NCBI RefSeq assembly: GCF_002305875.1
Contig: NZ_CP022098.1
Span: forward strand, 9,672,001 to 9,736,000
DNA from: Cystobacter fuscus
Lineage (GTDB): Bacteria > Myxococcota > Myxococcia > Myxococcales > Myxococcaceae
Length of the DNA stretch: 64,000 nucleotides
Direction of reading: 5' to 3'
Numbering within the stretch: position 1 is the stretch's first letter; each line of letters opens with the position of its first letter. The notes below the pieces were generated by a model. The model ran no database searches and was not told the DNA's origin. It saw only the letters and a program-made list of their open reading frames with translations. This document shows positions 8,932 to 63,721 of this stretch, piece after piece. Position numbers and translations under genes: made by a program.

Positions 8932-9735
<804 letters not shown>

Positions 9736-9809
9736 AGCGACCAGGCGGTTGGAGCATGCCCCCCTGGGTCCCGGTTGCATTCCCCGGTACACTGAGGGCT
9801 GGACCCCCC

Positions 9810-10280
9810 GTGAACAACCGCTGGTATTCGATGATGTTCGTCCTCGCCCTCTCGGCCCTCGGCGTGGCCTGCCCCGCCGACGAGAAGCCCGTCGCGCCGG
9901 TGCACGTGCCGGCCGTACCGCCCCCGGTGCGCCGCGCCCAGCTCAAGGGGATGCATGGGGACGTGAAGGTCAAACGCGCGGCCGGAGACGAATGGCTCCC
10001 CGCCCAGGAAGGCATGGCGCTCTTCGAGAATGACAAGGTACGGACCGTGGCGGGAGCTGGAGCGCAGGTCGTCTTCGTGCAGGGCAGCGTGGTGAACCTG
10101 GGCGAGGACGCGTTGATCGGCATCGCGGAGACGCGGCCCCGCCCCGGACAGGAGCGCACGGACCTGACGGTCTTGCGCGGACGGGTCGACGCCGAGCTGG
10201 AGGACTCCTCGCGCCAGGCGCTCTCCGTCACCACCCCCGCGGCCACGGTCCGGGCCGGAAGGGACATCGTGTTCCAATGA
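9810..10280 (+). CDS. FecR-domain lipoprotein
   Basis: This is a small exported protein of 156 residues from a GTG start. That start gives a compact signal peptide (NNRWYSMMFVLALSALGVAC) with a lipobox-like end and Cys about residue 21. A FecR-like beta domain follows: GDVKVKRAAGDEWLPAQEGM, then ENDKVRTVAGAGAQVVF and VNLGEDALIGI. FecR domains in myxobacteria occur in periplasmic or envelope proteins well outside iron sensing, so the role is not inferred. An upstream ATG at 9732 would add an unlikely Pro-rich leader. It overlaps the next gene as ATGA. Confidence 0.72.
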   Translation: MNNRWYSMMFVLALSALGVACPADEKPVAPVHVPAVPPPVRRAQLKGMHGDVKVKRAAGDEWLPAQEGMALFENDKVRTVAGAGAQVVFVQGSVVNLGEDALIGIAETRPRPGQERTDLTVLRGRVDAELEDSSRQALSVTTPAATVRAGRDIVFQ

Positions 10281-11155
10281 GGCTCTACCTTCTGATGGCG
10301 TTGCTGTCCCTCGCGCCCGGCGAGGTCGAGGTTCGCGCCGGCGAGTCGCTGGACCAGGTCGCCGAGCGGACCCTGGGCCGCGACGGAGCCAGTGAGCTCA
10401 AGGCGATCAACAAGTTGAAGGGCGACACGCTCGTGCCCGGCACGAAGCTGAAGCTGCCAGGGCCCGATCGGGAGCGGGCGCAGATGGCGCTGAAGTCGGC
10501 GCGCAACTCGGTGGAGCAGTCCGATCCCAATTCGCCCCAGCACGAGGAGGCCCTGGCCAAGCTCAAGGAGGCCGAGTCCCACTTCCACAGCGCGCGCTAC
10601 GAAGAGGCCGCGCAGACGGCCGACGACGCCTGGAAGCGGCTCGCCGAGCGTCCCGCCCAGCCCACCCGGCTGAGCGTGGTGGTGAACGATCGGGGCGACA
10701 CCGTGGTGAAGGCCGTGTCCGGCCGGGTGTCCGTGGAGGGCGGCGGCACCACCCAGGTCATCGAGGATGGGGCCAGTGTCCAGGTGGAGAAGGGCCAGGC
10801 GCCGCGGCTGGTGCTGGGCGTGCCCCGCCCCACCCAGCCCCAGGACAAGCAGCGGCTGAGCGTCAAGCCCGTCAAGAGCGGTCTGCAGCCCGTGCTCATC
10901 TCCTGGAAGGCGGTGCAGGGCGCCGAGAGCTACGAGGTGGAGCTGGTGCCCGCCCAGGGCGAGCGCCGGGTGATGCCCGCTCCGAGCAACGAGTTGCAGG
11001 TGCCGCTCGCCGCGGGCACCTACCGCTGGAGCGTGCGTGCCCTCTCGCGCGACTCGCGTTCCGAGGCCTCGGCCGAGCGGGACTTCGAGGTGGAGGTGGC
11101 GGAGGTCCCCGCCAAGCGCCTGCGCGTCAAGGTGCAGTCCTCGAAGTGGAAGTAG
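10277..11155 (+). CDS. LysM-domain envelope protein with FecR-like and fibronectin-like C-terminal part
   Basis: The 292-residue product starts with a short hydrophobic leader (MRLYLLMALLSLAPG). A LysM motif follows (about 18-60: VEVRAGESLDQVAERTLG, then LVPGTKLKLPG), a peptidoglycan-binding fold. Next is a charged helical segment rich in Ala/Glu (about 65-120), a FecR-like segment (about 135-180), and a C-terminal SYEVELVPAQGERRV...AGTYRWSVRALSRDSRSEAS region that resembles a fibronectin III or ligand-binding beta-sandwich. It overlaps the FecR gene by 4 bp and is followed after 18 bp by the HD-GYP gene, so the three likely work together at the envelope. Confidence 0.75.
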   Translation: MRLYLLMALLSLAPGEVEVRAGESLDQVAERTLGRDGASELKAINKLKGDTLVPGTKLKLPGPDRERAQMALKSARNSVEQSDPNSPQHEEALAKLKEAESHFHSARYEEAAQTADDAWKRLAERPAQPTRLSVVVNDRGDTVVKAVSGRVSVEGGGTTQVIEDGASVQVEKGQAPRLVLGVPRPTQPQDKQRLSVKPVKSGLQPVLISWKAVQGAESYEVELVPAQGERRVMPAPSNELQVPLAAGTYRWSVRALSRDSRSEASAERDFEVEVAEVPAKRLRVKVQSSKWK

Positions 11156-11173
11156 CAGGGAGGTCCATCCCCC

Positions 11174-12874
11174 ATGCGGCTCTTCAAGACGCTCCTGCTG
11201 TTGATGCTGGTGGCCAGCCTGGTGCCCACGGTGATGGTGGGCCTGCTGTCCGTGTCCGACACGCGCGAGCTGCTGGTGCGCGATGCCCAGGAGATGGCCC
11301 AGGAGCGCGTCAAGCAGCTCAAGCTCAAGGCGGAGACCTTCCTGGCCGAGCCCACGCGCGCGGTGATGGGCATGGCGCGCGTGCCCCAGTTCTTCTCCCT
11401 CCCCCTGGAGCAGCAGCAGACCTACCTGCGCTCGGTGCTCAACCAGCGCCGGGAGATCCAGGCCATCACCGTCCTGGGACTGGATGGCCGACGGCTGCCG
11501 GGCCTGCAGGCCTTCGCCGTCAATGACGTGCCCCCCACGGCGCTCGCCGAGCACGAGGCGCGCGCCATGGAGCTGCTCGAGGGGCTCAACGGCCTGCGCT
11601 ACGCGGACGTGGTGGGGCGCACCGACGGCGAGGCCGTGGTGACGTTCGCCATCTCCGTGGGCGAGCCCATCCAGGGCTACATCGCCGCGGACGTGTCGCT
11701 CGGGGAGCTGCAGACCATGCTCGCCCAGGAGCGCGTGGGCAGCACCGGCTTCGTCTACCTCACCGATGCCCGGGGCCTGGTGATCGCCGGCGGTGGCGGA
11801 CTCGTGGCCCACCAGGACGCCTCCAAGCGGCCCGTGGTGGCCTACCTCCTCCAGGACGTGTCACGCACGCAGGACACGGACATCCTCCACGTGGGCAACT
11901 TCGGCGAGGGCGCGGACGCCGTGGTGGCCGCCTACGCCACGCTGGCCGAGCCGACCTGGGCCATCATCTCCGAGCAACCGGTGGCGCTCGCCTACAAGCA
12001 GGTGGAGACGATGGAGCGGCGGCTGTTGCTCACCGTGCTCGCCGCCACGCTGGTGGCCCTGGGGCTCGCCGCCTTCTTCTCGCGCGGCGTCACCCGCCCC
12101 CTCAAGGGCTTCACCGAGGGCGCGCTGCGGCTGGCCCAGGGCAAGTTCGGCCTCGAGGTCAACGTGCCCCAGAAGAACGAGCTGGGCGACCTGGCCCGGA
12201 CGTTCAACTACATGAGCAAGCAGCTGCTCGCGTACGACCACGAGAACCGCGGCCTCTACGAGAGCCTCGAGCAGGGCTACCTGGAAACCATCGTCGCGCT
12301 GGCCAACTCCATCGACTCCAAGGACTCGTACACCCGCGGCCACAGCCAGCGCGTGGGCGACGTGGCGGTGGAGATCGGCCGGGAGCTGGGCCTGTCCGAG
12401 CGCGAGCTCAAGCAGTTGCAGTTCGGCGGCATCCTCCACGACATCGGGAAGATCGGCATCGTGGAGTCCATCCTCTGCAAGCAGTCGCGGCTCACCGACG
12501 AGGAGATGGCCGTCATGCGTGGCCACCCGGACATCGGCGACACCATCATCAAGCCCATCAGCTTCCTGGGCCCCATGCGCGCGTGCGTGCGCAGCCACCA
12601 CGAGCGCTGGGACGGCACCGGCTACCCGGACGGGCTCAAGGGCGAGGACATCCCCCTGCTCGCGCGCATCGTCGGGTGCGCGGACACCTTCGACGCCTGC
12701 ACCTCCACCCGCCCCTACCAGAAGGCCATGCCGCTGGAGAAGGCCATGGAGATCCTCGACAACCTGAGCGGCCGGCAGTTGGACCCCGCCGTGGTGGAGG
12801 CGCTGCGCCGGGTGCTCAAGAAGCGCGGCGTGCGCGTCGAGGGACACCGCCTGCCCGTGAAGCTGGCGTCGTGA
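11174..12874 (+). CDS. Membrane sensor HD-GYP phosphodiesterase (CACHE-HAMP-HD-GYP)
   Basis: The 566-residue product has a transmembrane helix at about 5-27, a periplasmic CACHE-like sensor domain (about 35-280), a second membrane helix (about 283-303), HAMP (about 304-355) and an HD-GYP domain (about 370-550). The active-site motifs are complete: HD at 422-423 (GGILHDIGKIGI), H450, HH at 475-476, and GYP at 483-485 (WDGTGYPDGLKG). HD-GYP proteins hydrolyse cyclic di-GMP to GMP, and some hydrolyse 3',3'-cGAMP. Its ligand is unknown. It lies 18 bp downstream of the LysM gene, suggesting that envelope state is read into second-messenger turnover. Confidence 0.92.
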   Translation: MRLFKTLLLLMLVASLVPTVMVGLLSVSDTRELLVRDAQEMAQERVKQLKLKAETFLAEPTRAVMGMARVPQFFSLPLEQQQTYLRSVLNQRREIQAITVLGLDGRRLPGLQAFAVNDVPPTALAEHEARAMELLEGLNGLRYADVVGRTDGEAVVTFAISVGEPIQGYIAADVSLGELQTMLAQERVGSTGFVYLTDARGLVIAGGGGLVAHQDASKRPVVAYLLQDVSRTQDTDILHVGNFGEGADAVVAAYATLAEPTWAIISEQPVALAYKQVETMERRLLLTVLAATLVALGLAAFFSRGVTRPLKGFTEGALRLAQGKFGLEVNVPQKNELGDLARTFNYMSKQLLAYDHENRGLYESLEQGYLETIVALANSIDSKDSYTRGHSQRVGDVAVEIGRELGLSERELKQLQFGGILHDIGKIGIVESILCKQSRLTDEEMAVMRGHPDIGDTIIKPISFLGPMRACVRSHHERWDGTGYPDGLKGEDIPLLARIVGCADTFDACTSTRPYQKAMPLEKAMEILDNLSGRQLDPAVVEALRRVLKKRGVRVEGHRLPVKLAS

Positions 12875-55294: not shown

Positions 55295-55690
55295 ATGAGT
55301 GAACCCAAGCTGCCCCGCCCGACGGACGCGGAGCTGGCCATTCTACAGGTGATGTGGGAGCGCGGCCCGAGCACGGTGCGCGAGGTGCACGAGGCGTTGA
55401 ACAAGGGCGACGCCAGCACGGGCTACACGACGGTGCTCAAGCTGATGCAGATCATGACGGAGAAGGGGCTCGTCGAGCGGGACGAGTCCCAGCGCGCGCA
55501 CGTGTACCGCACGCGGGCCTCGCAACAGAAGACCCAGCGCCAGTTGGTGACGGACCTGCTCAATCGCGCGTTTGGCGGCTCGCCCGCGCGGCTGGCCATG
55601 CAAGCCCTGTCGACGAAGAAGGCCTCGGCCGAGGAGCTCGCCGAGCTGCGGCAATTGCTGGACACCCTGGAGGAGGAGGAGAAGCCATGA
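55295..55690 (+). CDS. BlaI/MecI/CopY-family transcriptional repressor
   Basis: The 131-residue product follows the winged-helix repressor pattern: RPTDAELAILQVMWERGPSTVREVHEALNKGDASTGYTTVLKLMQIMTEKGLVERDE, then a dimerisation tail (LLNRAFGGSPARLAMQAL...KKASAEELAELRQLL). In BlaI/MecI the repressor is cleaved by a BlaR1/MecR1 peptidase. Its stop overlaps the M56 peptidase start as ATGA. GGGAGGA precedes the ATG. Confidence 0.94.
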   Translation: MSEPKLPRPTDAELAILQVMWERGPSTVREVHEALNKGDASTGYTTVLKLMQIMTEKGLVERDESQRAHVYRTRASQQKTQRQLVTDLLNRAFGGSPARLAMQALSTKKASAEELAELRQLLDTLEEEEKP

Positions 55691-57636
55691 GCACGCTGGT
55701 ATGGCAGTCCCTGGGCTGGGCGTTGTTGCACCTGTTGTGGCAGGGAACCCTGGTGGCCGTGGCCCTCGCGGTGGCGCTCCAGGTGGTGGATCGCCGCGCG
55801 GCCTCGCCGCGCTACCTGCTGGCCTGTGGCGCGCTGGCCCTCATGCTCGTGCTGCCCGTGCTCACCGGCTGGCACCACGTCCTCACCCATCCGCGCACCG
55901 GCTCCGCACCGGAAGCCACCGCGCTGGCGGGTCCCTCCGAGCCACGTCCCCTCCCCACGTCCGCTGCCGCCGCGACGAGCCCCCACGCGACAGGCGACAC
56001 CGGACTCGCCTCGGTGATGGGGCGAGCCCGCTCCGTGGTGGGTGGGAACCTGCACGGGCTGGTGCTGGCCTGGGGGCTGGGGGTGGTGTTGTCCTCGCTC
56101 CGGCTGCTGTCCGGGTGGCTGAGGCTGCGCCGACTGGTGCGCGAGGCCGAGCCCGCCCCCGTCGAGTGGCAGGAGGCCCTGGAGCGGCTGGCGCGGCAGC
56201 TCGGAATGACGCGGCCGGTGCGGCTGCTGCGCTCGGCGGCGATCGACGTGCCCGCGACCCTGGGCTGGTTGCGGCCGGTGGTGCTGCTGCCCGTGACGGT
56301 GCTCACGGGGTTGTCGCCACGCCAGCTCGAGATGGTGCTCGCGCACGAGCTGGCCCACATCCGCCGCCATGACTTCGCGGTGAACCTGGTGCAGACGTTG
56401 GTGGAGACGCTCTTCTTCTACCACCCGGCGGTGTGGTGGATGTCGCGCGTCATCCGCGCCGAGCGCGAGAACTGCTGCGATGACATCGCCGTGGGCACCA
56501 GTGGCAACGCGGTCTCGTATGCCCGGGCCCTCACGGCGCTGGAGGCCCTGCGCGAGCTGCCCGTGTCGGGTCCGGCGATGTCCGCCCTGGGCGGCTCGCT
56601 CACGGCGCGCGTGCGCCGGCTGGTGGGCCGGCCCGCCACGCGGTGCGCGTCGCGCTGGGAGGCGGGCGCCCTGCTGCTCACGCTGATGAGCGGCCTGGCC
56701 GTGGCCGCCCCCCTGGTCGCCCTCGCCCTGCCCGCCTCGCCCCCCCTCCAGGCCCACGCGAACCCCCCGATGGAGGTCGCGCTCGCCGTCGCCCCAGCGC
56801 CCGCCGCTCCCGCGCAGCCGCCCGCGCCGCTCGCCTCGGGCTCCGTGCCCATTCCCGTTCCCCAGCCGAGCGCTCCCGCCGGGATCGCCGGGAAGCCCGC
56901 CCCGAAGGCCCAGGCGAAGGAGCCCCTGCGGCTGGGATTGAAGGGGCCGTTCACGGTGGACCAGCTCGTCGAGCTCAAGACGGCCGGGGTCTCCATGGAG
57001 CAGAAGCGGCAATGGGAAGCGCTCGGCTACACGCCCACCGTGGAGGAGCTGGTGCAGCTCGGCCATGCCAACGCGACACCCGAGTACATGAAGGAGATGA
57101 CGGACGCGCTCGGCGACAAGCCCACGCTCGAGGAGCTGGCCCAGATGCGGTTCCTGGGCGTGAGCGCGCGGAAGGTGAAGGCGCTCGCGGCGGCCGGCCA
57201 TCGCGCGCTGTCCGTGGACCAGGTGACGCAGGCGGCGGCGCTCGGCATGGACGAGGAGTTCCTCCAGGAGATGCGCGAGGCGGGCCAGGGCTCGCTCACC
57301 TTCGACCAGCTCATCCAGTTCCAGGCCCTCGGGGTGAAGGGGCCGTACATCCAAGCCCTCAAGGACATGGGTTACGACAAGCTCTCCGCGGACGAGCTGG
57401 GGCAATTCAAGGCACTCGGCGTCTCCCCCGAGTACCTCCGCGAACTGCGTGAGGCGGGATTGGACAAGCTCGACCCGGAGGCCGTGGTGAAGCTGCGCGC
57501 CCTCGGCGTGGACGCGAGCGACCTGCGCAAGCTGCGCGACGAGGGCTTGGACAAGCTCTCCGTGGACGAGTTGATCCGCCTGCGCTCCTCTGGCGTGGAC
57601 GCCGACTTCATCCGGGAGTTGCGCGAGGAGCCGTGA
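55687..57636 (+). CDS. BlaR1-like M56 membrane peptidase with C-terminal 29-residue repeats
   Basis: The 649-residue product has N-terminal membrane helices and an M56 zinc peptidase with HELAH at 220-224 (LAHELAHIRRHDF) and a downstream Glu in RAERENCCDDIAV. BlaR1 normally ends in a beta-lactam-binding domain; here none is present. After a membrane helix (about 337-357) and a Pro/Ala linker, residues about 420-649 form about eight repeats of roughly 29 residues (LRALGVDASDLRKLRDEGLDKLS type). It probably senses something other than beta-lactams and cleaves the BlaI-like repressor. The signal is unknown. Confidence 0.85.
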   Translation: MSTLVWQSLGWALLHLLWQGTLVAVALAVALQVVDRRAASPRYLLACGALALMLVLPVLTGWHHVLTHPRTGSAPEATALAGPSEPRPLPTSAAAATSPHATGDTGLASVMGRARSVVGGNLHGLVLAWGLGVVLSSLRLLSGWLRLRRLVREAEPAPVEWQEALERLARQLGMTRPVRLLRSAAIDVPATLGWLRPVVLLPVTVLTGLSPRQLEMVLAHELAHIRRHDFAVNLVQTLVETLFFYHPAVWWMSRVIRAERENCCDDIAVGTSGNAVSYARALTALEALRELPVSGPAMSALGGSLTARVRRLVGRPATRCASRWEAGALLLTLMSGLAVAAPLVALALPASPPLQAHANPPMEVALAVAPAPAAPAQPPAPLASGSVPIPVPQPSAPAGIAGKPAPKAQAKEPLRLGLKGPFTVDQLVELKTAGVSMEQKRQWEALGYTPTVEELVQLGHANATPEYMKEMTDALGDKPTLEELAQMRFLGVSARKVKALAAAGHRALSVDQVTQAAALGMDEEFLQEMREAGQGSLTFDQLIQFQALGVKGPYIQALKDMGYDKLSADELGQFKALGVSPEYLRELREAGLDKLDPEAVVKLRALGVDASDLRKLRDEGLDKLSVDELIRLRSSGVDADFIRELREEP

Positions 57637-58989: not shown

Positions 58990-59502
58990 TCAGCGCGAGG
59001 GAGCGCGCCGCCGGTACTCCGTCTCGACGGCCTTGGTCTCCGGGCCCTGGCCCTCGGGCGGAATGTTGTAGTGGGTGATGAGCAGCCGATCCGGCTCGGG
59101 CTGATGGATCTCCGTGCGCCAGCCCCAGGGCGGACCGGAGGGCGCCGCGTAGCTGCCCTGGACGGCGTAGCCCTGGCCGCCCCGGCTTCCCGTGGAGAAC
59201 ATGATGCCAGTGCCGCTGTGGAAGCTGTCGACCCAGGCCATTTCGTAGCGCTCGGGATCGAGGTGATAGCCATAGATGGCCATCCCGGCGAGCGGCTTGC
59301 CCTTGAAGGCGCCCTCGTACTCATGCACCACGAAGCGCCCCCCGAGCACGGGACGGATCGTCCCGCGCCAGACGGACTCGTCTTCGAGCGTGTCGGGCTC
59401 GAACCACGTCCGCGTCACGCCCTCCCACTCGCCCACGAGCTTCGACAACTGATGATGGAGACCACCCTCCGCCTGGGACTGCTCCAACGATTGTTTCGCC
59501 AT
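58990..59502 (-). CDS. DUF1579-like protein
   Basis: The 170-residue product contains HHQLSKLVGEWEGVTRTWFEPDTL, GGRFVVHEYEGAFKGKPLAGMAIYGYHLDPERYEMAWVDSFHSG and ITHYNIPPEGQGPETKAVETEYRR, the lipocalin-like pattern of DUF1579. The family has no established function. The ATG at 59502 lies 11 bp downstream of the Cys-rich lipoprotein gene, so they are probably co-transcribed. Confidence 0.85.
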   Translation of the reverse strand: MAKQSLEQSQAEGGLHHQLSKLVGEWEGVTRTWFEPDTLEDESVWRGTIRPVLGGRFVVHEYEGAFKGKPLAGMAIYGYHLDPERYEMAWVDSFHSGTGIMFSTGSRGGQGYAVQGSYAAPSGPPWGWRTEIHQPEPDRLLITHYNIPPEGQGPETKAVETEYRRRAPSR

Positions 59503-59513
59503 GGGCGGCGAGC

Positions 59514-60347
59514 TTACAACTGGCAGGTGCCTTCCACGCACCGCTCGCCCGAGGGGCAATCACAATTGACGGAGCACTCCGCGCCGCTGCCCGGGGAGTC
59601 GGAGGGCTGGCAGTAGCCCACCTTACACACGGAGCCCGTGGCGCACGTGGTGGTGGAGGTGCAAGGCACGCGGCAGGAGCCGTCCACGCAGTCCGAACCC
59701 GAGGCGCACTGCGAGGCACTGGTGCACGAGGGCTCCGCGCGAGGACGGCACAGTCCGGCCGAGCACTGCTGCGCGGCACCGCAGTCGGAGTCCGCCGAGC
59801 AGCCCCGCACACACGCGTTGTTGATGCAGTAGTTGCCCGAGGGGCAGTCCGCGTTGCGCACGCACACGGCCGAGCCCGCGTCGATCGGGGTGCCCGTGCC
59901 GCCGTCCGTGGGCGGACGCGGGCAGCCCGAGCCGCCATCCACCGGAGGCAGCCCGCCATCCGTGGGCCTCGTGCCGCCATCCGTGGGCTTCGTGCCCGCG
60001 TCGGGACGCGACGTCACCTGGCAGTAGTACCCGTCACAGTAGCCGCCGTTGGGGCAGTCCGCGTTGCGCTTACACGACTGGTTGCACACGCCGTTGACGC
60101 ACGTGTCGCCGCGCGTGCAGTCCCCCGCCGAGCGACAGGTCTCCGCCTGCGCGTCCAGGTCCTCACATTGGCCCCTCATACAGTACTGGTTGGAGCGACA
60201 GTCCGAGTTGTCGTCACATGCGTATTGCCCGGGACGGCCGTAGCCATCGTCGTCGTCGTGGACCAAGACACATCCAGCGAAGAAGCCCACGATGAGGGCG
60301 AGCATCGGGGGCAGCAGAGACACCTTCTGGGACGGAACGGTCGACAT
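59514..60347 (-). CDS. Cys-rich EB-module lipoprotein
   Basis: The 277-residue product has a lipoprotein signal (PPMLALIVGFFAGC) and an acidic start (VHDDDDGYGRP). Multiple DxDCxxxxxCxxGxC units follow, as in EGF/EB-module (for example SDCRSNQYCMRGQC, ADCPNGGYCDGYYC, ADCPSGNYCINNAC and CDCPSGERCVEGTC), with a Gly/Thr/Asp/Pro-rich linker (KPTDGGTRPTDGG). Such repeats form disulfide-stabilised surface domains. The ATG at 60347 has GGAG 8 bases upstream and is preferred to longer starts. Function unknown. Confidence 0.8.
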   Translation of the reverse strand: MSTVPSQKVSLLPPMLALIVGFFAGCVLVHDDDDGYGRPGQYACDDNSDCRSNQYCMRGQCEDLDAQAETCRSAGDCTRGDTCVNGVCNQSCKRNADCPNGGYCDGYYCQVTSRPDAGTKPTDGGTRPTDGGLPPVDGGSGCPRPPTDGGTGTPIDAGSAVCVRNADCPSGNYCINNACVRGCSADSDCGAAQQCSAGLCRPRAEPSCTSASQCASGSDCVDGSCRVPCTSTTTCATGSVCKVGYCQPSDSPGSGAECSVNCDCPSGERCVEGTCQL

Positions 60348-60493
60348 GGGGCACTCCATCGGGGGGCCGGATCCGGGCGAGTTGGGGCGGATGGCCACCG
60401 CTCATCTCGCAATAGGAGCAGAGATTCTACCCGACAGCAGGGCGATTCCGGACGCCCCGCCATCTTCTGAACGCACGCGCTCCCACGTGCCAG

Positions 60494-61174
60494 CTACCGC
60501 CTCCCGAACCCGAACCCGAACGCCCAGGCCGGAACGACCGTGGCGGCCACCCCCGCGCCCCACCCGTACAGCAGCTCGTCGAGTGGAACGCCGAGAAACC
60601 GGCCCGGGAGCAGGAGGCTCGGCCTCCAGGTGCGCTCGAAGACCCCGGGCACGAGCCCCGCGAAGATCAGGCACAGCCCCAGGTAGATGACCGCCGACAC
60701 CAGCCCCCCGAGCAGCCCCGGCCCCCACAGGTCCGGGCGCACCCACAACAGACCCGCCGCGCACACCCCCATCGCCACCACCGAGGCGTAGAGGATGGGC
60801 ACCCCCACCCCTCGCAACAGCCCCGCCAACCCCAACACGAGTCCCAGGGCCCCCACGGCCCGTAACAGGGAGCGCACGGCAGCTCCTCGTGGCACCACGG
60901 CCCGGCGGAACGCCACGGCATAGGCGGTGGAGGCGAAGGCCCCCAGCCCGGCGACGAACAACACGTCCTCGAGCCCGAAGCCGATCCGATCGGCCAGATC
61001 GAACAGGAACCGGGGCGTCCAGTACTCCGGATAGAAGAGCCACTCGGTGGTGGCGAACGGGAGCGAAAAGGGCACCGTCCGCTTCATCAGCCAGCGCAGG
61101 TCCGGGCGGACGAACCAGATGAGCGCTCCGGGCACGAGGAACAGGAGCGACAACACCAGGAACTCGTACGTCAT
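60494..61174 (-). CDS. Lycopene cyclase domain membrane protein
   Basis: The 226-residue product has about seven hydrophobic segments and two repeats of the lycopene cyclase domain: WFVRPDLRW...FGLEDVLFVAGLGAFAST and WVRPDLWGP...VPLDELLYGWGAGVAATV. These match the (E/D)-E/D-x-L-x-x pattern of CrtYc/CrtYd and archaeal CrtY. It is the last gene of a four-gene overlapping operon with two UbiA enzymes; the start overlaps the UbiA stop as ATGA. Cyclisation or modification of an isoprenoid is inferred, but the acidic residues vary from those of known cyclases. Confidence 0.8.
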   Translation of the reverse strand: MTYEFLVLSLLFLVPGALIWFVRPDLRWLMKRTVPFSLPFATTEWLFYPEYWTPRFLFDLADRIGFGLEDVLFVAGLGAFASTAYAVAFRRAVVPRGAAVRSLLRAVGALGLVLGLAGLLRGVGVPILYASVVAMGVCAAGLLWVRPDLWGPGLLGGLVSAVIYLGLCLIFAGLVPGVFERTWRPSLLLPGRFLGVPLDELLYGWGAGVAATVVPAWAFGFGFGRR

Positions 61175-62079
61175 GGCCACACCAGCCCGAGCAGCGGCCA
61201 CGCCACCATGGCCAGGGTCGCGGTGATCGCGGCGGCCACCCGGGCCTGGATCCGCCACGAGCCCGGCGGCGCGGGACGTACCCCCACCACCGCGAGCGTC
61301 GCGGCCATGGGCACCCCCAGTGCCGCCCCCACCTCCAGCCCCACCGACGCCAGCCCGCGCGGCGCCAGGGCCCAGGTGAGCCCGTTGAGCGCCACGATGA
61401 CCCAGGCGGCCCGCTCCCCGCCCACGCGGACCGGCAGCGTGCGCTTGTCGCTGTCCCGATCCGAGGGCTCGTCGGGGAGCGCGGTGGCGATGGAGCACGC
61501 GAGGTGGGTGGGCCACAGCATCACCGTGAGCGCCCAGGGGAAGTCCGCGAGCGCTCCGCCCTGGGCGAGGTACCCATACAGCGGCAACACCCCGGCCACG
61601 CCCAGCATCTGCAACAGCTCGCCGCCGCCCCGGTAGGACAGCCGCAACGGCGGATAGCTGTAGGCCCACAGCAGCGCCACCGCCGCCACCGCCAGCACCC
61701 CGAGCAGCGGCGCGCGGTGCACCACCGCCAGCCCCACCGACACACCGACCAACGCCACCGCGCAGACGATCGCCGCCGTCCCCAGCGCCCTGGGGGAGAG
61801 CCGGCCCTCGACCAGCACCCGTGAGCCCCCCGAGAACACCGTCGCCGTGCGGTTGCGGCGATCCGTCTCCTGGTCCGCCCAGTCATTGGCGTAGACGATG
61901 AAGAGCTGATCCAACACCCCGAAGAGCTGCACCGCGACGAGTGTCCCCATCCGCAACGCGCCACCCGTCGCGTGCACCGCGATGAACTGCCCGAGCAGCA
62001 GCGGAAGCGCGATGTACGACTGGGAGGGCAGCCGCGACGCCTGGAGCCAGGCCCGGAGGCGCGCGAGGCCCGGGCTCAC
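61171..62079 (-). CDS. UbiA-family prenyltransferase (first copy)
   Basis: The 302-residue product has about nine membrane segments and the two Asp-rich motifs of UbiA enzymes: NDWADQETD near 85-93 and DEPSDRDSDKRT near 200-211. The Tyr/Arg-rich region SYPPLRLSYRGGGELLQM between them is also typical. UbiA members transfer a prenyl chain to aromatic, glycerol-1-phosphate, heme or other acceptors. The start is GTG, overlapping the unknown gene's stop as GTGA. Acceptor unknown. The second copy at 62,792 is clearly related (RLNYRGGGELLEM). Confidence 0.9.
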   Translation of the reverse strand: MSPGLARLRAWLQASRLPSQSYIALPLLLGQFIAVHATGGALRMGTLVAVQLFGVLDQLFIVYANDWADQETDRRNRTATVFSGGSRVLVEGRLSPRALGTAAIVCAVALVGVSVGLAVVHRAPLLGVLAVAAVALLWAYSYPPLRLSYRGGGELLQMLGVAGVLPLYGYLAQGGALADFPWALTVMLWPTHLACSIATALPDEPSDRDSDKRTLPVRVGGERAAWVIVALNGLTWALAPRGLASVGLEVGAALGVPMAATLAVVGVRPAPPGSWRIQARVAAAITATLAMVAWPLLGLVWP

Positions 62080-62795
62080 GACGCGTCTTCCCGCGCGAGC
62101 CCCAACCGCTCGGCGACCTCGGCGCGCAGCTCGGTGAAGGGCAGATCCCAGCGGCGCTCGCCATCCAGGCGCCACGCCTTGACCGGGATGAGTTCCTCGC
62201 GGGCGAGCACCTGGTGCAGCCGTGCCTCGTCCCGGGGCTCGCGGCGGAAGGAGAAGGGATTGCGGAAGGCCCGGCCCTCGAGCGGCCCGTACTTGGCGTC
62301 GTGGTCCGCGATGAGTTCACGCAGCTCCTGGAGCCGCGTGTCCAGGTAGTCGAGGAACACTGGATCGAAAGGCCCGATGCCCGCACGCGCCTCGGGCTCG
62401 CGCGCCACCCAACGGGCCCAGTCGTAGCCGAACAGGAAGTCATGGGCGTAGCGGAAGCGCAGCTCGGACTTGTTGCCGAAGCCCCGGCACAACGCCACCA
62501 CCCGCCCGGCGAACGCGCGCATCTCGTCCGGTCCACCCGTCTTCCACAGGCAACAGGCCAGGTAGTCCAGGTCCCAGAAGATGTTGTCCGGAAAGTCCTC
62601 GACGAGCACGCCCACCACGTCGGCCAGTGCCTCGGCGAAGGCCCGCCGTCGCGCTTCCTCGCCCGCCATCAAACGCTCCGCCAGTTCCACGGGCAGCGGC
62701 GCGCGCGCACGGGAAGGATCCAACGAGGCACGCGCCCCCAGGGCGGGCCCCAGGCGCACCAGCCGCTCGAGAAGCATCCGGACATCACTGATCAC
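62076..62795 (-). CDS. Uncharacterised helical protein of the UbiA operon
   Basis: The 239-residue product starts from GTG overlapping the upstream UbiA gene by 4 bp. It is largely helical with no membrane segment and no recognised motif. Notable stretches are LVEDFPDNIFWDLDYLACCLWKTGGPDEM, ALCRGFGNKSELRFRYAHDFLFGYDWARWV and a C-terminal LPFTELRAEVAERLGL. Its place between two UbiA enzymes suggests a substrate carrier, hydrolase or structural partner of that pathway. Confidence 0.75.
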   Translation of the reverse strand: MISDVRMLLERLVRLGPALGARASLDPSRARAPLPVELAERLMAGEEARRRAFAEALADVVGVLVEDFPDNIFWDLDYLACCLWKTGGPDEMRAFAGRVVALCRGFGNKSELRFRYAHDFLFGYDWARWVAREPEARAGIGPFDPVFLDYLDTRLQELRELIADHDAKYGPLEGRAFRNPFSFRREPRDEARLHQVLAREELIPVKAWRLDGERRWDLPFTELRAEVAERLGLAREDAS

Positions 62796-63721
62796 CGAGC
62801 ACCTCCCCACCAGCGCTCCACGAGCACCAACCCGGACAACACCAGCGTGCCCCACCAGATGGCGCGGTGGAGTTCCAACTTGTAGGCCCCTTGCGCCGCG
62901 AACGCATTCGTCACCGCTTCCGGACTCTTGCGCCACGCGCGTGCGCTGAAGAACACCACCGGGAGCGCCGCCAGGGACCCCCACTGCCCCATCCCGAGCC
63001 AGAGCACGGCCCCCGCCAACAGCAGGCCCTCCGAGGCCCGCCGGACCGCCGCGTTCCCCAGCCACGTGGTGAAGGTGCGCTTGCCTCCGGCACGGTCACT
63101 CTCCTCGTCGGATAGCCCACTGGCGAGCGCGCTCGCCAGGCAGAGCGCCAGCAGTCCCGGAGCCCAGGTGAGCAGGGCCTGTGGCGCCCACTGTCCACAT
63201 TGCGCATAGGCATGCAACACGGGAAGCACCCCGCCCACGCCCACCATCTCCAGCAGCTCCCCACCCCCCCGGTAGTTGAGCCGCAGCGGAGGCAGTGTGT
63301 AGGCGGCGAAGATGAACAGGCTCAGGGCCGCGAGCGGCAGGAGCAACGGCCGCGCGAGCGCGGCTCCGGCGGCGCCCGCCAACACCAGGGCCCCCGCTCC
63401 CGCTCCCAGTCCCGCCAGCAACAGGGCCCTCGCGGGGAGGATGCCGTCGGGGATCGTCTTCGGCGAACAGCCGCGCGGGAACATGCGGCGCTTGAGGGCA
63501 TCCACCTCGCGGTCTCCCCAATCGTTGAGCAGCACGATGAAGGTGATGTCCAACGCCGTCCACAGCACCCCCCACGCGAGCGCTCCCACCGACCACCGCC
63601 CCGCGCTCGCCGCCCCCATCGCCTGTCCGAACAACGCGGGGACGAACACCTTCGGCCAGCTCGCCGGCTTCAGCGCGTACCACCACCGCCGCGCGGCTCC
63701 CATCGACTCGACACCCACCAC
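62792..63721 (-). CDS. UbiA-family prenyltransferase (second copy)
   Basis: The 309-residue product has the UbiA motifs NDWGDREVDALKRRMFP and SDEESDRAGGKRTF, with LPPLRLNYRGGGELLEMVG between them. About eight to nine membrane segments are predicted. A GTG at 63721, six bases after GGGAGG, is chosen over the ATG at 63703. It heads the operon. The 262-bp gap upstream has a TATAAG near 63760-63765 on the minus strand but no clear -35. The pair of UbiA genes may act on successive steps or form a heteromer. Confidence 0.88.
   Translation of the reverse strand: MVGVESMGAARRWWYALKPASWPKVFVPALFGQAMGAASAGRWSVGALAWGVLWTALDITFIVLLNDWGDREVDALKRRMFPRGCSPKTIPDGILPARALLLAGLGAGAGALVLAGAAGAALARPLLLPLAALSLFIFAAYTLPPLRLNYRGGGELLEMVGVGGVLPVLHAYAQCGQWAPQALLTWAPGLLALCLASALASGLSDEESDRAGGKRTFTTWLGNAAVRRASEGLLLAGAVLWLGMGQWGSLAALPVVFFSARAWRKSPEAVTNAFAAQGAYKLELHRAIWWGTLVLSGLVLVERWWGGAR

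Follow-up and report, generated by a model that had tools for sequence, protein, structure and literature searches.

We analysed a 64,000-nucleotide stretch of the 12.35-Mb genome of Cystobacter fuscus (C1:9672001-9736000, the window below), which carries an operon of four genes, here called A, B, C, and D (Table 1). A first-pass annotation of this DNA had described two UbiA prenyltransferases, a third protein without a recognised family, and a lycopene-cyclase-domain protein, encoded by genes overlapping by 4 bp each. The overlaps were borne out in the sequence, neighboring genes sharing GTGA, GTGA, and ATGA at their stop and start codons. The length of gene A assumes the first ATG at the conserved start; an upstream start at 63721 is also possible. 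In a simple hydropathy scan, four hydrophobic segments were found in A, five in C, five in D, and none above threshold in B. No promoter-like site was found at the operon, and terminator-like sites lay inside gene D.

Table 1. Coordinates of the operon, its overlaps, and neighboring reading frames in the window.
Feature	Position	Strand	Remarks
Gene A, UbiA-superfamily membrane prenyltransferase	63703-62792	minus	303 aa, PF01040
Gene B, soluble all-helical protein without family	62795-62076	minus	GTG start, 239 aa
Gene C, UbiA-superfamily membrane prenyltransferase	62079-61171	minus	GTG start, 302 aa, PF01040
Gene D, lycopene-cyclase-domain membrane protein	61174-60494	minus	ATG start, 226 aa, PF18916
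Overlap A stop/B start	62795-62792	minus	GTGA, 4 bp, read in sequence
Overlap B stop/C start	62079-62076	minus	GTGA, 4 bp, read in sequence
Overlap C stop/D start	61174-61171	minus	ATGA, 4 bp, read in sequence
Cysteine-rich protein	59514-60350	minus	
DUF1579 protein	58990-59520		
Long open reading frame	55354-57636	plus	

The four genes were found together in many relatives. B was present in eight of 59 genomes of relatives (the host genome counted), and a profile search of 195 phylum genomes matched 23; a match in G041 (E 7e-4, 85 columns) was discarded as chance. Scanning genome contigs with exact peptide patterns only revealed 11 B loci, namely four in Sorangium cellulosum, one each in Myxococcus sp. 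RHSTA-1-4, Pyxidicoccus fallax, and the Myxococcales metagenome-assembled genome ACE_MYX12, and four in cyanobacteria. The layout was determined by tblastn in 28 loci (22 phylum genomes, the four Sorangium strains, ACE_MYX12, and G227, a genome of the same phylum as Nostoc G195). A-B-C-D were contiguous in 20 of them, no gap exceeding 36 bp; these include So0008-312, where A is in two frame pieces, and So0157-2, where D has an insertion. In G002, D lies about 21 kb from A-B-C, and in G139 a segment of 1425 bp, read as two open reading frames (ORFs), separates C from D. Because 20 of 28 loci keep the genes together, their linkage goes beyond chance, and the routine separation that the first-pass annotation had named as evidence against a common pathway was not what we found.

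The overlaps also recurred. B and C overlapped by 4 bp in 24 of the 25 loci where they adjoin, and A and B in 18 of 26; some of the other overlap values reflect start-codon choices of the script, the true value in the window being 4 bp by sequence. Between C and D, the 4-bp overlap was seen in three genomes of the window’s genus and a 7-bp spacing in 14. When up to five ORFs per side were compared (E≤1e-20; fewer than five were readable in five loci), 96 of the 105 pairs of 15 loci had no flanking ORF in common; eight of the nine flank-sharing pairs fell inside one genus-like group, and the ninth was a 41% match. The cassette is thus a unit that occurs in differing surroundings. Among the matches listed from titles and abstract starts of the open-licence literature, no description of the four-gene set was found.

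A and C are distinct members of the UbiA superfamily, scoring 73.7 and 83.2 bits with PF01040 (cut-off 34.2). A carries the aspartate motifs NDWGDREVD and SDEESD and the clade signature SPKTIPD; C carries NDWADQETD, PDEPSD, and the signature SGGSRVLV. NDxxDxxxD, PDxxxD, and SGGSRVLV were kept by C in 26 of 26 sequences, including that of Ilyobacter, while NDxxDxxxD, SPKTIPD, and (S/A)DExSDR were kept in all 25 true A rows (the So ceGT47 row of the A alignment is a cross-hit to C, and the remnants in G105 enter neither count). The two paralogues from these overlapping genes are 38% identical over 216 columns, and both have a K-x-T stretch after the second aspartate motif, like the GKRT of MenA (1,4-dihydroxy-2-naphthoate polyprenyltransferase) proteins. 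In NCBIfam, MenA models also ranked first for C and second for A, which places MenA among the nearest curated models for both. No NCBIfam model reached its cut-off, however: the MenA cut-off of 264 bits was missed by far by C (51.7) and A (36.4), whereas the genome’s own MenA, at 5.66 Mb, scored 346.2 as a control. The genome also encodes a CtaB elsewhere (277.3 bits). For C, two geranylgeranylglycerol-phosphate geranylgeranyltransferase models gave 27.4 and 12.5 bits (cut-offs 296 and 278), and among PDB sequences its only UbiA relative was chlorophyll a synthase (9sau/9sas, E 2.5e-6). A tree built from 31 UbiA proteins gave A a clade of its own (support 100/100) and grouped C with the proteins of G227, G187, and Ilyobacter in a second clade (89/88, under the starred level). 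Both clades shared a 24-row group with MenA proteins, from which they were separate, and CtaB stood outside this group (84/93); the UbiA trees contained no characterised lycopene elongase.

Profile searches bore out that B lacks a recognised family, as B had no match in Pfam (E≤1), NCBIfam (E≤1), PHROGs, or PADLOC. Comparing 31 members with Pfam gave stray matches in one or two members only. The same 31 sequences have 37 invariant columns, with invariant NIFWD, FRYxHDF, RNP, and REP stretches, and the predicted model is all-helical with a predicted local distance difference test score (pLDDT) of 90.6. It gave zero Foldseek matches in the PDB at E≤0.001; the best VIA match was a designed repeat (Z 6.8, root-mean-square deviation 3.4, 129 residues). 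Nothing was found among PDB sequences (best E 0.44), and viral contigs held no relative. No known family was thus matched by B in Pfam, NCBIfam, PHROGs, PADLOC, PDB sequences, or PDB folds, and B stands as a well-folded, highly conserved family without a known relative.

D matched PF18916 (Lycopene_cyc) with 44.9 bits (cut-off 27), in agreement with the first-pass annotation; the score does not imply lycopene as the substrate. NCBIfam held no family for D (E≤1) or its relatives, and D-like proteins are annotated in databases as ‘lycopene cyclase domain-containing’. The acidic residues E44, E69, D70, D148, and E200 were invariant in 15 of 15 sequences, and E44, E69, D148, and E200 were also kept in Ilyobacter and in a lone relative from Methylophaga. 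D shares its family with CrtYc/CrtYd and has PLDELLY where CrtYd has PLEELLF. Unlike the heterodimeric CrtYc/CrtYd, whose like genes sit separately in the genome, D is one 226-aa protein, and comparing it to a profile built from eight CrtYd-type sequences gave no significant result (probability 1.8%, no positive control). PF18916 scores in cassette genomes were 23–33 bits for the CrtYc/CrtYd-like pair and 36–52 bits for D. As a means of telling the two apart the score was dropped, since paired matches of other relatives (G021, G024, G027) reach 37–49 bits. The D model (pLDDT 73.9) had no Foldseek match at E≤0.001; its top VIA row was the Insig homologue MvINS (Z 7.4, root-mean-square deviation 4.8, 167 residues), a weak resemblance that may merely reflect a common arrangement. 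The lone Methylophaga thalassica gene (27–29% identity) lies on a plasmid (L140 7992-8684) beside resistance-nodulation-division efflux genes, with arsenic genes further off. In Sorangium So0157-2 (L043 11614-12789), D measures 392 aa vs. about 230, owing to an inserted array of ARTRPGLAA-like repeats.

Partial sets of the four genes were found in several genomes. G187, from another family of the phylum, has A-B on one strand and, divergently on the other, an ATP-binding cassette (ABC) ATPase, an ABC permease, C, and D. The transporter (L098 7411-9602) thus sits between the A-B and C-D halves, with 4 bp shared between its permease ORF and C; the ATPase scored 215 of 312 bits with the DrrA model and the permease 35 of 147 with a DrrB-family model. 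This single case hints at export or flipping. On plasmid pILYOP01 of the fusobacterium Ilyobacter polytropus, homologues of D (45–47%) and C (42%) are adjacent (ILYOP_RS12535-RS12530), 6 bp apart and without assigned function, among neighbors without carotenoid annotation. The pair resembles C-D, but its order is D-C, and neither A nor B had a match in the plasmid collection, a search that did not extend to the Ilyobacter chromosome. G227 has A-B-C and no PF18916 gene. About 7.5 kb away (L159 1087-5833) it encodes a PF04244 photolyase-related protein, a flavin amine oxidoreductase, a CarH-like MerR regulator with B12-binding domains, and GTP cyclohydrolase I, which may form a light-response cluster; G227 itself has no SQS_PSY match. 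In ACE_MYX12, A-B occur, again without a PF18916 gene (C was searched at the locus, not genome-wide).

B also occurred alone. It was detected in 12 of 194 genomes in the sample of the Nostoc phylum, G227 counted (the G375 copy has an internal TAG), and at four cyanobacterial loci it stood without A, C, and D in up to 10 kb of flank read. In G195 and G368 the six UbiA genes all lie outside the A and C clades, and G195–G197 have no PF18916 gene. At the cyanobacterial loci L046-L048 (about 9200-11550) B lies between UPF0047 and DUF34/NIF3 genes, identified by Pfam in L046 and by eye in L047 and L048. Among the myxobacteria, only B is left in RHSTA-1-4 (G143, L102 7924-8625), at the site where G139 carries its cassette, with flanking ORFs common on both sides. 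In G105 (L101 7424-8679) B is intact, and the other three genes have internal deletions. Nonsynonymous and synonymous distances (dN, dS) of B were 0.168–0.181 and 0.349–0.488 between G105 and four congeners, and 0.102–0.140 and 0.288–0.388 between RHSTA-1-4 and three relatives. The resulting dN/dS of about 0.31–0.49, next to about 0.18–0.37 for five intact-cassette pairs, fits continued, perhaps relaxed, purifying selection on the lone gene, over a span that includes time before the loss. Taken together, these layouts fit a pair of modules, A-B and C-D, better than a single indivisible set of four genes.

The combination of UbiA and lycopene-cyclase-domain proteins had suggested a link to C50 carotenoids. 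As already stated in the first-pass annotation, no crtB, crtI, or geranylgeranyl diphosphate synthase gene is nearby: the four PF00348 matches of the genome (5.4–7.6 Mb) and the three PF00494 (SQS_PSY) matches (0.06, 1.41, and 4.81 Mb) all lie outside the window, and none of the CrtI-family matches listed falls inside it. No crt gene was recognised by eye beside the cassette in the flanks read; a flavin-type ORF near it in G017 and G126 reached 26.5–27.1 of the 549.7 bits set for CrtD. Carotenoid genes do occur elsewhere in the host: a separate crt cluster at 1.41 Mb comprises two CrtI-family genes, an SQS_PSY gene, and genes resembling CrtYc/CrtYd. By coordinate it lies 8.3 Mb from the operon at 9.73 Mb; were the single contig circular, the opposite path would measure about 4.0 Mb. 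According to an excerpt of PMC9304148, Cystobacterineae use CrtYc-CrtYd and Sorangiineae CruA-family cyclases. Because the hosts use these enzymes, D looks surplus to known carotenoid needs; a figure legend in the same source also names a ‘possible lycopene cyclase’. G227, with its A-B-C, had no SQS_PSY match, compared to two in Nostoc G195, and no CrtI over the cut-off. The latter is weak alone, as the carotenogenic G195 also had none. Overall the C50 link is weakened.

That the operon serves an undescribed isoprenoid pathway, as the first-pass annotation had proposed, is supported as likely. On the most economical view, to which we give about even odds, its enzymes work at the membrane and make a prenylated lipid or small molecule other than a carotenoid; the last point is drawn from G227, which lacks an SQS_PSY match and a CrtI over the cut-off. 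From the protein families and motifs we infer a mechanism in which A and C would each take a prenyl diphosphate, supplied by enzymes encoded elsewhere in the genome, and attach its prenyl chain to a membrane acceptor. D would then protonate and cyclise a prenyl double bond of C’s product through its conserved acidic residues. The soluble B would assist A, either as a helper enzyme or by binding the acceptor, and would be of use alone too. The operon would be a fusion of the modules A-B and C-D leading to a shared product. Its nearest known logic would be the pairing of a UbiA protein with a cyclase in C50 carotenoid synthesis and in fungal meroterpenoid pathways, a likeness of working rather than a claim of membership. 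More specifically, and only tentatively, A-B, with its new family, may join C-D in a carotenoid-independent pathway to a cyclised prenyl lipid; complete or partial sets of its genes occur in myxobacteria, a member of the cyanobacterial phylum, and a fusobacterium. Several observations weigh against this interpretation. Overlap alone is no proof of a single product; the acceptors of A and C could differ, or the two could be terpene cyclases of the UbiA type. The completeness of G227 is not given, so that its missing genes may be assembly gaps, and, having no D, it is silent on D’s substrate. In G187 and So ceGT47, both with CrtI and SQS_PSY, D is the sole PF18916 gene, and a carotenoid role of D is possible there. 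So ceGT47 also has B-C-D without A, none of its five UbiA matches falling in the A clade; A is therefore not always needed.

Foremost among the alternatives, though in itself unlikely, is a modification of the C50 type, in which one or both UbiA proteins would add C5 units to lycopene or a relative and D would cyclise the ends, as CrtEb and CrtYe/CrtYf do in Corynebacterium. The same protein families are involved, a UbiA prenyltransferase standing beside a lycopene-cyclase-domain protein in the CrtEb-CrtYe/CrtYf module of C. glutamicum as in the operon. CrtI and SQS_PSY, moreover, are both encoded in the window’s genome, G187, So ceGT47, and ACE_MYX12, and the sole PF18916 genes of G187 and So ceGT47 also favor a carotenoid role. 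However, the C. glutamicum module belongs to a crt operon that also has crtE, crtB, and crtI (PMC5401885, in excerpt), whereas the operon studied here has no recognised crt neighbors, two UbiA paralogues, a single D, and the protein B. The distant crt cluster with its CrtYc/CrtYd-like genes, the cyclases ascribed to Cystobacterineae and Sorangiineae, the A-B-C of G227, and the D-C pair on a fusobacterial plasmid likewise speak against it.

A tailoring of menaquinone-like quinones, such as hydration or cyclisation of the myxoquinone side chain, with A and C as MenA paralogues and D modifying the isoprene tail, ranks next and is rather improbable. It would agree with the prominence of MenA models among the NCBIfam matches and with the hydrated menaquinones of Cystobacterineae, whose hydrating enzymes are unproven according to an excerpt of PMC8955186. 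Yet A and C fall far below the MenA cut-offs in a genome with a separate, clear MenA. The same excerpt places myxoquinones in Myxococcus xanthus and Corallococcus, neither of which is named among the 11 B loci of the exact-pattern scan, and reports them in Cystobacterineae only, while Sorangium carries the cassette. Third in our ranking, and improbable, A and C might be UbiA-type terpene cyclases or a heterodimer acting on free prenyl diphosphate, the product being a cyclic terpene without an acceptor. UbiA-type terpene synthases do exist in fungi (PMC9835599, in excerpt), and the kinship of the two paralogues would suit such a pair; against this, A and C keep the MenA-like K-x-T stretch, and no flanking gene is common across clades, therefore no tailoring oxidase is linked. 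Archaeal-like ether lipid synthesis with an enzyme resembling digeranylgeranylglyceryl-phosphate synthase is very improbable, for the weak matches of C to the two geranylgeranyltransferase models, from which it arises, are far under their cut-offs.

The remaining reading frames noted in the window were the following. The operon is followed, on its own strand, by the gene of a cysteine-rich protein with DUF7107 and Dickkopf_N matches, and downstream of that lies a DUF1579 gene (122.9 bits). The long plus-strand ORF encodes C-terminal repeats of about 25–35 residues, LGV...LREEG-like by eye.

If the operon indeed makes a cyclised prenyl lipid independently of carotenoids, lycopene-cyclase-domain proteins would serve beyond carotenoid synthesis in a way that has gone unnoticed, and B would represent a new enzyme family, possibly with a new fold. 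If D acts on something other than lycopene, ‘lycopene cyclase’ labels would mislead and a kind of membrane cyclase would have been overlooked. With four genes present in several cultured myxobacteria, the cassette offers a compact target for a new prenyl lipid or meroterpenoid.

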